From a virus, in the IMG/VR virus record IMGVR_UViG_3300020197_000166, positions 1 through 23,632 of that record: a DNA stretch of 23,632 nt. One strand, written 5' to 3'. A program made the translations under genes and the position numbers. Numbering within the stretch: the stretch's first letter is position 1; the number at the start of each line of letters is the position of its first letter. Below are positions 5,003-13,442 of the stretch, piece by piece. The notes below the pieces were generated by a model. The model saw only the letters and a list, made by a program, of their open reading frames with translations, did no database searches and was not told the origin of the DNA.

Positions 5003-5499
5003 TGGCACGACGTGCGCGTGCGCCGAAGAAGCCGAAGGACCCGAAGATCGAGCCCGAGCGGCTGCCGCTCGTCGAGAAGGCCATCCACGAGCTGATCGCC
5101 GAGTACCAGATCGGCAACCTCGAGCGGATCACGATCGTCGCGCGGAGCAAGGCGGGCAAGGCTTCGGGCCCGCCGTGCGGCCGGATCGTGAAGGTCTCCA
5201 TCGTCTCGAAGGCGGTCAACGCGCTCCTGAAGGACGAGGAGATCGGCGCCGTCCAGTACGCCGTCGACGTCAAGGTCCACGCCTGGGACAAGCTCGACGC
5301 TGACGAGAAGAAGCGCGAGCTGCTGCACGCCGTCTGTCACATGGGCGGCTACGACGACCACGACCGGCTCTTTCTCGTGCAGCACGAGATCGAGGAGTTT
5401 CAGCGCGTGGTCGACGTCTTCGGCGCCTACGCGCCCTCCATCACCAAGTTCGCGAAGGCGGCGAAGCAGCTGCCGCTCGCGGGGACCGAGAAGAAGTGA
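5002..5499 (+). CDS. Putative phage metallopeptidase-like protein with degenerate HExxH
   Basis: The 165-residue protein resembles the putative phage metallopeptidase family. It has a Lys-rich N-terminus, a central beta-rich part, then L-L-H-A-V-C-H at 107-113, followed by H128-E-I-E-E-F and V-F-G-A-Y. Family members usually carry H-E-L-x-H followed by H-D-x-E-E-F. Both zinc-binding histidines, H109 and H113, are kept here, but the catalytic Glu is replaced by A110. The protein may therefore bind metal without peptidase activity. The ATG is preceded by GGAGG and overlaps the previous stop. The function of even the intact family is not established, so the role stays open. Confidence 0.65.
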   Translation: MARRARAPKKPKDPKIEPERLPLVEKAIHELIAEYQIGNLERITIVARSKAGKASGPPCGRIVKVSIVSKAVNALLKDEEIGAVQYAVDVKVHAWDKLDADEKKRELLHAVCHMGGYDDHDRLFLVQHEIEEFQRVVDVFGAYAPSITKFAKAAKQLPLAGTEKK

Positions 5500-5804
5500 G
5501 CGCCGACGTCCCCATGACCGAGGCGACGGGCCGGCGGATCGCCGACGCGACGGAGCGGCTCGTGGAGCTGCTCGGGCCCGCGCTCGGCGATCCGCGGCGC
5601 CTCTGCGTGCACGGCTTCAGCATCGCCCGGTGTCGGCTCTGCCCGACCGTGGCGTTCCCCGCGGGCGAGCCCGGCCCGTCGCTCGCGCGGCAGCTCATCG
5701 AGTCGTTCGCGGGCCTGCGGTCGTCCCTCGACGATGCCTTCGAGCTCTGCGGCCACGGCTTCGCGCGCCGCGTGTGCGCGAGGTGCATGGAGCCGCTCCG
5801 GTGA
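5496..5804 (+). CDS. Small protein with two C-x-H-G-F zinc motifs
   Basis: The 102-residue product has no known family that I can name. It contains two copies of one motif: C-V-H-G-F-S-I-A-R-C-R-L-C near residue 37 and C-G-H-G-F-A-R-R-V-C-A-R-C near residue 86, that is C-x-H-G-F-x4-C-x2-C. Each could supply a zinc site, or the two could pair. The helical segment between them has no special feature. A related motif occurs in the gene at 9168. The GTG start overlaps the previous stop. The stop overlaps the GTG of the HNH gene, which I believe was originally the start of the RuvC-like gene. Confidence 0.7.
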   Translation: MSADVPMTEATGRRIADATERLVELLGPALGDPRRLCVHGFSIARCRLCPTVAFPAGEPGPSLARQLIESFAGLRSSLDDAFELCGHGFARRVCARCMEPLR

Positions 5805-6370
5805 ACGTCCTCGCCCTCGACCTCGCGACGCTGCGGCACCTGTACGTCGATGAGAGGAAGACGACGCGCGAAATCGGCGCGCTCGTCGGCCTCGGCCATC
5901 GGTCGGTGGTGCGGATGCTGAAGTCCCACGACATTCCGGCGCGTCGTCGCGGTGAGCGCCGGTCGACGCTCGACGAGCGATTCGTAGAAAAGTTCGTCGT
6001 CACGGCGTCGGGCTGCTGGGAGTGGATCGCTGCGAAAAGCCCGGACGGCTACGGCCTCTTCAACCACACGCCGGGCAAGTCGGGCCGGGCGCACCGCTGG
6101 TCCTACGCACGCTTCGTGGGCCCGATCCCCGAGGGCTACGAGGTCGACCACCTCTGCCGCAACCGCGCGTGCGTGAATCCGGACCACCTCGAAGCCGTCA
6201 CGAAGCGCGAGAACGTCATCCGCGGCACGTCGTTCGCCGCGGTCAATGCCAGCAAGGCCCACTGCCCGAACGGCCATCCGCTCGTCGCGGGTTCGGGACA
6301 GCGGGTTTGCCGTGTCTGCCGACGAGCGTCCTCGCTCGCCTACTACCACCGGATGCGAGGCGCCGCATGA
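5801..6370 (+). CDS. HNH homing-type endonuclease with N-terminal HTH, fused to the first codons of the RuvC-like gene
   Basis: The 189-residue protein has three parts. Residues 1-10 are M-N-V-L-A-L-D-L-A-T, identical to the start of the RuvC-like protein encoded next. Residues 11-47 form a helix-turn-helix with T-R-E-I-G-A-L-V-G-L. The HNH_3 domain follows from about 69: S-G-C-W-E-W, A-H-R-W at 97-100, D116-H117-L-C119 and C124-V-N126-P-D-H129-L. A final Cys pair set, C155 and C170-x2-C173, may bind zinc. The protein appears to use the start codon and ribosome binding context of its target gene. The family makes site-specific breaks and promotes its own spread. The GTG at 5801 overlaps the upstream stop, and no alternative start lies before the HTH. 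Confidence 0.9.
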   Translation: MNVLALDLATLRHLYVDERKTTREIGALVGLGHRSVVRMLKSHDIPARRRGERRSTLDERFVEKFVVTASGCWEWIAAKSPDGYGLFNHTPGKSGRAHRWSYARFVGPIPEGYEVDHLCRNRACVNPDHLEAVTKRENVIRGTSFAAVNASKAHCPNGHPLVAGSGQRVCRVCRRASSLAYYHRMRGAA

Positions 6371-6867
6371 ACGTGCTGGCGTTGGATTTAGCCACTAAGA
6401 CAGGTTGGGCCCTCGGCGCCGAGCGCATGACCGAGAGCGGCGTCCAGGTCTTCGACGTCAAGCGCGGTGAGTCGCCGGGCATGCGCTACGTGCGCTTCCG
6501 GCGCTGGCTCGACGAGATCGCGACGGCCGCCGACCTGATCGTCTACGAGCAGACGGTTTCGTCGCCCGGCCGCATCGCCGTGGAGATCGCCGACGGGCTC
6601 GCCACGCGCGTGCAGGAGTACTGCGCGCTCCAGAAGCTCAGCGGCCGGTCCGTCGAGCACCAGCCGGTGTATCCCGCCACGATCAAGAAGTTCGTCACCG
6701 GCAAGGGCAACGCGAAGAAGCCCGCCGTCATCGAGGCGGTGATCCGGCGCGGCTGGTTCCCCGCGGGGCGCGACGCGGACGACAACGAGATCGACGCGAT
6801 CGCGCTCTTTCACTACGCCCTGGCCGAGATCGTCCCGCAGTCCATCCCCACGACGAAAGCGAGGTGA
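6367..6867 (+). CDS. RuvC-like Holliday junction resolvase (RNase H fold)
   Basis: The 166-residue protein keeps the acidic set of phage RuvC-like nucleases: D7 in L-A-L-D-L-A-T-K-T-G, E61 in I-V-Y-E-Q, and D138/D139, E141 and D143 in D-A-D-D-N-E-I-D-A. A basic G-K-G-N-A-K-K stretch at 112-118 precedes the last motif, as in relatives. The likely role is cutting branched DNA during recombination or before packaging. The first 13 codons include TTG, GAT, TTA, ACT, ACA and GGT, rare in this genome, whereas codons from 14 onward return to G/C endings. The ATG overlaps the HNH stop. The 5' end looks like a recoded replacement created by the HNH insertion. Confidence 0.88.
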   Translation: MNVLALDLATKTGWALGAERMTESGVQVFDVKRGESPGMRYVRFRRWLDEIATAADLIVYEQTVSSPGRIAVEIADGLATRVQEYCALQKLSGRSVEHQPVYPATIKKFVTGKGNAKKPAVIEAVIRRGWFPAGRDADDNEIDAIALFHYALAEIVPQSIPTTKAR

Positions 6868-12719: not shown

Positions 12720-13442
12720 ATGACCGCCACCGTCAAGGACATCACCGTGCTCGCGCTGAACCCGGAGCAGATGCGCCCCGCGCAGGAGTCGCTCGTGCGC
12801 TGGGCGGACGACAAGCTGCGGGCGCTGACCGCCGACGCCGAGGAGCAGAGCCGCGCGATGGAGGAGGCGGCGCGCACGCCGTTCACGAACCAGCGCAGTC
12901 AGTGGCGGCGCGAGCTGGACAAGACGGCGAAGCTCATCACGTTCTACGTGAAGGTGCGCGACGCGCTGCGGGCGGGCTACATCATCGTGCCGGACTTTCC
13001 CGTGGACGTGTTCGCGGTCCGCACGGATGCCGACACGCCGGAGGGGAGCGTCACGTGGTCCCGGCGGCCGTGGCGGCGCGAGGGCGTCTTCGTGGAACGC
13101 TCGCGCGCGCTGGCGTCCGGAGAAGGCGCGTACGTCTCGCCGGCCGTGGCGCACTCGACGCGGGCGTTCACGGAGCCGGACGGCAAGGGCGGCGAGGTCC
13201 AGCGGTACGAGATCACCGCCACCGAGTTCCGCGACGTGGCGATCCCCTCGCGGCTCGTCCGTCCGGAGATCCTCGACGCCACCAACAAGGCGCTCGCGCT
13301 GAAGCTCTTTGATGAGCTCGGCCTCGTCGGGCGTCCGCGTCAGGACCCCATCATCGTCGGCAAGATCGTGGACCCGCGCGACCCGAGCACGCGCCGCGTG
13401 TCGTTCTTCGTCGCGTGGTGGCTGGACACGGCGACGCTGTGA
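12720..13442 (+). CDS. Hypothetical phage protein, 240 residues
   Basis: The gene starts at ATG 12720 behind a perfect AGGAGG. The N-terminal 80 residues are helical and charged, perhaps a coiled coil (A-D-A-E-E-Q-S-R-A-M-E-E-A-A). The central and C-terminal parts look mixed alpha/beta, with V-P-D-F-P-V-D-V-F-A-V-R and W-S-R-R-P-W-R-R-E-G. No cysteines or membrane segments are present. I do not recognise the family. The strong ribosome binding site suggests higher expression than its neighbours. Its stop overlaps the next ATG (TGATG). Confidence 0.75.
   Translation: MTATVKDITVLALNPEQMRPAQESLVRWADDKLRALTADAEEQSRAMEEAARTPFTNQRSQWRRELDKTAKLITFYVKVRDALRAGYIIVPDFPVDVFAVRTDADTPEGSVTWSRRPWRREGVFVERSRALASGEGAYVSPAVAHSTRAFTEPDGKGGEVQRYEITATEFRDVAIPSRLVRPEILDATNKALALKLFDELGLVGRPRQDPIIVGKIVDPRDPSTRRVSFFVAWWLDTATL

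Follow-up and report, generated by a model that had tools for sequence, protein, structure and literature searches.

An HNH homing-endonuclease element has very probably inserted into a viral RuvC-like gene, in frame and just after codon 10, capturing the start of that gene and leaving a diverged copy of its 5′ end behind. The window, by which we mean the whole 23,632-nt stretch analysed, is a complete IMG/VR virus entry (23.6 kb, 70% G+C) from an uncultured virus, and no close copy of it was found. The locus is laid out as follows.

5496–5804, + strand: small Cys-rich gene upstream, called from the sequence, without a Pfam or PHROG match
5801–5830, + strand: RuvC-like start with codons 1–10, apparently native, now opening the HNH gene (codon comparison; likeness to the relative L004)
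5801–6370, + strand: HNH endonuclease gene, 189 aa (Pfam HNH_3, E = 1.4e-17; PHROG 826, E = 3e-50)
about residues 11–53 of the HNH protein: HTH-like segment
residues 97–139 of the HNH protein (about 6089–6217): HNH_3 domain
C-terminal part of the HNH protein: Cys pairs
5831–6405, + strand: putative mobile unit, made up of the HNH body and the recoded 5′ end (proposed from the mapped Malisha/Spooky insertion, by analogy)
6367–6867, + strand: RuvC-like gene (PHROG 159, RuvC-like resolvase, E = 9.9e-23)
6367–6405, + strand: recoded replacement, RuvC codons 1–13 (codon usage and simulation)
6406–6867, + strand: rest of the RuvC-like resolvase gene, normal codons

The TGA of the upstream gene overlaps the GTG start at 5801 (GTGA), and this overlap is presumably the original junction between the upstream gene and the RuvC-like gene. 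The HNH stop is in turn overlapped by the RuvC-like ATG at 6367 (ATGA). Captured start, HTH-like segment, HNH_3 domain and C-terminal Cys pairs follow each other in the 189-residue HNH protein; the nuclease domain is of the phage homing type (HNH_3 and PHROG 826), and no solved structure matched the protein. A second HNH_3 gene is located at 109–672 of the window. Its stop is overlapped by the ATG (at 669) of the gene that follows, and no N-terminal capture was seen there. Many phage homing endonucleases reside in introns, and the HNH gene could in principle be the ORF of a self-splicing intron. However, no Rfam match was obtained in the window, L378, L284, L249 or L227, and a splicing intron has no need of a second 5′ end. 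A group I or II intron was rejected on the lack of an Rfam match around the HNH gene, and we regard the intron explanation as extremely improbable.

The HNH and RuvC-like proteins both begin (M/V)NVLALDLAT, with 10/10 identical residues when the GTG start is counted as M. HNH codons 1–10 read GTG AAC GTC CTC GCC CTC GAC CTC GCG ACG, and RuvC-like codons 1–10 read ATG AAC GTG CTG GCG TTG GAT TTA GCC ACT. Nine of the ten codons differ, AAC is the only one in common, and 19/30 nt match. Given the amino-acid composition of the window, two given starts would agree over 9 residues with a probability of approximately 3e-11. Its codon usage also sets the second copy apart: no other stretch found in the window is as aberrant. 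RuvC codons 2–13 score z = −7.5 against the codon usage of the window, as compared with −5.7 for the lowest of 3,982 other twelve-codon stretches, in a control that is conservative and harder to beat because 1653–2051 was read in the wrong frame. TTA does not occur in the 3,974 other codons of the window, a simulation of 200,000 codings produced none as unusual, and normal codons return from codon 14. The first-pass annotation had described the ten shared residues with their nine differing codons and the aberrant second copy, and both descriptions hold. It had also placed Asp7, the residue of the RuvC-like protein that would be catalytic by analogy with the family, within the duplicated stretch, and by position this is correct.

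The closest HNH-free relative of the RuvC-like gene is L004 (65% aa identity). Its G/C-rich 5′ end reads ATGAACATCCTGGCCCTGGATCTCGCGACC and matches the HNH copy at 24/30 nt and the recoded RuvC copy at 22/30. More distant G/C-rich RuvC relatives are also nearer to the HNH copy. L004 is therefore consistent, at the sequence level, with the HNH gene carrying the native 5′ end of the RuvC-like gene; the difference is slight, though, and L004 lacks synteny with the window and has a different upstream region. The first-pass annotation had predicted an empty locus in which the first codons of the HNH gene read straight into the body of the target. At the window this prediction stands as far as the likeness of L004 to the HNH copy goes, but not as to synteny. 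A syntenic empty allele of the window locus was not found. The upstream gene (5496–5804) was tried as a handle for such an allele, and the search returned no relatives. The RuvC-like gene had only relatives of <60% identity in phages and plasmids, and no HNH motif was seen in the flanks of 80 RuvC relatives (0/80). Two observations had been named in advance as counting against the homing reading. HNH homologues elsewhere with these ten residues were not seen among the HNH relatives, and an A/T-rich 5′ end in genes lacking the HNH was seen only in distant relatives (37–41% aa identity, e.g., L009 and L018). In view of the small margin and the non-syntenic L004, we searched for the same architecture elsewhere.

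HNH relatives were gathered by protein and by pattern, around 250 HNH_3 genes were surveyed, and each HNH gene start was checked for similarity to the starts near the stop of that gene. In an ungapped N-terminal scan, five HNH genes scored at least 37, against a maximum of 35 in 4,608 permuted pairs. Among adjacent gene pairs, this threshold was reached by 5/185 HNH pairs and by 6/5,755 non-HNH pairs (p = 1e-5; p = 1.6e-4 without L291, which was left out in the second test since it had been found via its target). When gaps were allowed, the comparison of 251 HNH genes also brought in Malisha, which the ungapped scan had under-scored owing to a one-codon offset, as well as L227, L229, and L247. 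The permuted null of this comparison reaches 64, mostly via HNH-domain pairs, and only Malisha (91) and L227 (66) stand above it. L229 and L247 are included on account of their register, their location at the HNH stop and the homology to L227. In all, seven further target genes show the architecture of the window, giving eight.

RuvC-like resolvase: the window
HTH gene: L102, likely case
head-to-tail adaptor: L283, L291
small gene: L213, L279
PHROG 11517: L249
lysin B: Malisha
small HTH or excisionase-like gene: L227, L229, likely case
RusA-like resolvase: L247, likely case

In all eight, the two copies flank the HNH gene and the next start is near the HNH stop. This regularity bears on whether the structure is the product of ordinary illegitimate fusion or of tandem duplication, with an HNH gene that is inactive and no homing. 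Phage genomes are mosaic, and the HNH activity is here a prediction from sequence. Against such a fusion stand the recurrence at eight target genes in one arrangement, the enrichment of HNH pairs over other gene pairs, the intact HNH motifs, and the occupation of the same site in L283 and L291, which together make it quite unlikely.

Several further observations were made in the survey. Capture was seen in Malisha only among the 19 named-phage regions examined. No relatives of the L213 target were found in phages, and the L102 target has no relatives besides itself, so it provides no empty site. The matches in L106 (MNH) and L191 were not counted, as they are short and weak or reflect a shared CW motif. 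In L227 the HNH ORF (510–1371) is fused to the first codons of the small HTH or excisionase-like gene, and in L229 an HNH ORF on the reverse strand, ending near 1613, is likewise fused to the first codons of such a gene. In both, the own start of the target is strongly A/T-rich and the gene is otherwise G/C-rich. The RuvC-like gene of the window and the RusA-like gene of L247 belong to two unrelated families of Holliday junction resolvases targeted by such HNH genes. On the reverse strand of L177 (HNH stop near 12832) and of L176 (near 9361), the C-terminal residues of the HNH protein are similar to the end of the gene just upstream (EARAAGV and FPEKA, respectively), which may be a C-terminal mirror of the start-capture arrangement. 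Neighbouring non-HNH genes on the reverse strand of L274 and L235 have the common N-terminus MAKMMSPNTTIWWV and are possibly tandem paralogues.

HNH-free alleles were found at four of the parallel loci (lysin B, head-to-tail adaptor, L249 and L213), and at these four independent loci the predicted empty allele, in which the first codons of the HNH gene continue directly into the target body, was observed. A defined insertion site with empty alleles is thus present at each of them, and the window locus is consistent with one through L004. The clearest pair is cultured. The Gordonia phages Malisha (with HNH) and Spooky (without the insert) are relatives, and both were grown on Gordonia terrae 3612. 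The upstream flank of Malisha HNH gp29 is identical to that of Spooky lysin B over 120/120 nt, and the first 27 codons of gp29 are DNA-identical to the start of Spooky lysin B. Past these codons, Spooky continues into lysin B and Malisha into the HNH gene, and the two loci differ by about 659 nt. Malisha lysin B matches that of Spooky at 66/102 nt over its first 34 codons and then at 73/78 over the next 26. In these alleles, then, the native start has been taken over by the HNH gene, and the element supplies a diverged 5′ replacement. Two parts of the first-pass annotation, an HNH gene sitting on the old start of its target and a synonymous replacement of the target 5′ end, are borne out by this pair, and the homing insertion that it proposed gains support from the parallel empty and occupied alleles. 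The finished genome of the isolate Malisha, along with other independent contigs of the same structure, also speaks against an assembly chimera of a metagenomic contig. That the window comes from an uncultured virus and lacks a close copy would suit a chimera; we nevertheless consider this explanation hardly credible.

The other three loci agree. The empty adaptors L285 and L287 read MAAPPV(E/Q)VPCEP-WTTPEEV. In the occupied adaptor L283, MAAPPVEVPCEP is on the HNH gene and MAAPPEQVPCSP-WTTPEEV on the target; its HNH copy matches the empty L285 at 34/36 nt and its target copy at 24/36. The HNH of L291 is at the same site as that of L283. In the adaptor relatives L288, L289 and L290 (gene from 2001, 501 and 2001, respectively), the match is split by approximately 345 nt near residue 171. 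For L249, the HNH copy matches the empties L312 and L314 at 32/33 nt, and the target copy at 21/33 and 20/33. For L213, the last 22 nt before the start codon are identical in the empty L351 and the HNH gene. Here the two copies differ little (27/33), and the target copy is close to the natural allele L349 (31/33, with a body of 90% aa identity), so recoding is not always strong.

The main rival concerns the source of the spelling. With the same insertion history, the second copy could have come by co-conversion from a donor allele with a diverged 5′ end, and its different spelling would then be a passive by-product rather than one selected for immunity. The likeness of the L213 target copy and body to L349 fits this origin, which may be the true one in L213. 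The amino-acid changes held by the copies at L283, L213 and L249 point the same way, as does the attribution of the supplied ends in fungal mitochondria to horizontal transfer (PMC3630166). On the other hand, codons for the same residue differ between copies more often than expected (62/88 observed vs. 47.9 expected, z 3.25, in a pooled test that counts both L283 and L291). The third-position G+C also dips locally to 0.38 in L227, 0.38 in L229 and 0.70 in the window, as compared with 0.89–0.96 in the target bodies; the A/T-rich spelling ends near the junction, and target and HNH bodies stay G/C-rich. We consider a diverged donor a possible source, though the less probable one.

In the mechanism we propose, the element would consist of the HNH body and a replacement 5′ end of the target. 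By analogy with Malisha, the mobile unit of the window may have entered after codon 10 and replaced RuvC codons 11–13. Insertion in frame behind the first codons would provide the HNH gene with a native start and ribosome-binding context, and the HNH protein, translated from the old start signals, would have resolvase residues 1–10 as its N-terminus. Directly behind the HNH stop would then come the diverged copy that replaces the lost 5′ end, and the resolvase would still be made, from a new ATG coupled to that stop (ATGA). As the protein is restored across the insertion site, only a different DNA spelling can spare the carrier from its own enzyme. The HNH protein would accordingly be predicted to cleave the native site, the re-spelling to protect the element from this cleavage, and the element to be mobile and transferable. 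Somewhat better than evenly, we favour the broader view of a widespread natural home-and-rescue drive in phages. On this view, conserved genes would be targeted at their first codons by HNH elements that take over the start signal and bring along a rescue copy, its spelling selected for maximal difference from the cleavage site.

Free-standing homing endonucleases are usually thought to be harmless by sitting between genes. The element described here is inside the coding start of a gene, yet leaves the target gene working. Expression, harmlessness and, probably, self-immunity would be handled by a single arrangement. For annotators, an HNH gene whose N-terminus recurs in the adjacent gene shows where the element went in and probably what its enzyme targets. 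With Malisha and Spooky both in culture, homing and immunity can be tested together.

Among phage systems, free-standing HNH and GIY-YIG homing endonucleases (T4 mob and seg genes) are comparable in that the HNH genes likewise adjoin conserved genes, and transmission to genomes lacking the endonuclease genes is known for the T4 examples (PMC2988022). The available text of this review of T4-type elements describes neither a captured start codon nor a recoded target 5′ end (PMC2988022), and the available part of a survey of phage nucleases holds no such phage case (PMC10448857). The first-pass annotation knew of no described phage case at the 5′ end, and none was found in searches of an open-access library. 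Its parallel with fungal mitochondria is correct for C-terminal replacement: in Glomus (atp6, atp9, cox2, nad3) and Allomyces (atp6), mobile endonuclease ORFs replace C-terminal gene ends (PMC3630166). It does not hold as a C-terminal phenomenon only, since N-terminal duplications around mobile introns occur in Tremella fuciformis mitochondria (PMC7315562). There, as in the phage element, the N-terminal part of a host gene is duplicated around an inserted mobile element, but the elements are introns or former introns, without the phage HNH gene and without coupled bacterial start and stop codons (PMC7315562). The fungal end replacements resemble the phage element in that an endonuclease element lies in a conserved gene and supplies a new end for it (PMC3630166). 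The native and supplied ends of Glomus atp6 share 63.5% nt and 91% aa identity (PMC3630166), and the same low DNA and high protein identity beside an endonuclease is seen in the window (19/30 nt, 10/10 residues). The fungal elements, however, act at the 3′ end, encode LAGLIDADG or GIY-YIG enzymes, reside in organelles and displace the native end (PMC3630166). The window gene is not an organelle enzyme of either type; it is an HNH_3 gene at a 5′ end in a phage record, and it starts from the native end. The engineered home-and-rescue drive HomeR also cuts a gene with a nuclease and carries a re-coded piece of that gene as rescue (PMC7968924). HomeR is man-made, CRISPR-based and directed at a 3′ end in Drosophila (PMC7968924), and its likeness to the phage element is one of logic only. 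Together, the parallels with this engineered drive and with the fungal mitochondrial elements suggest repeated invention.
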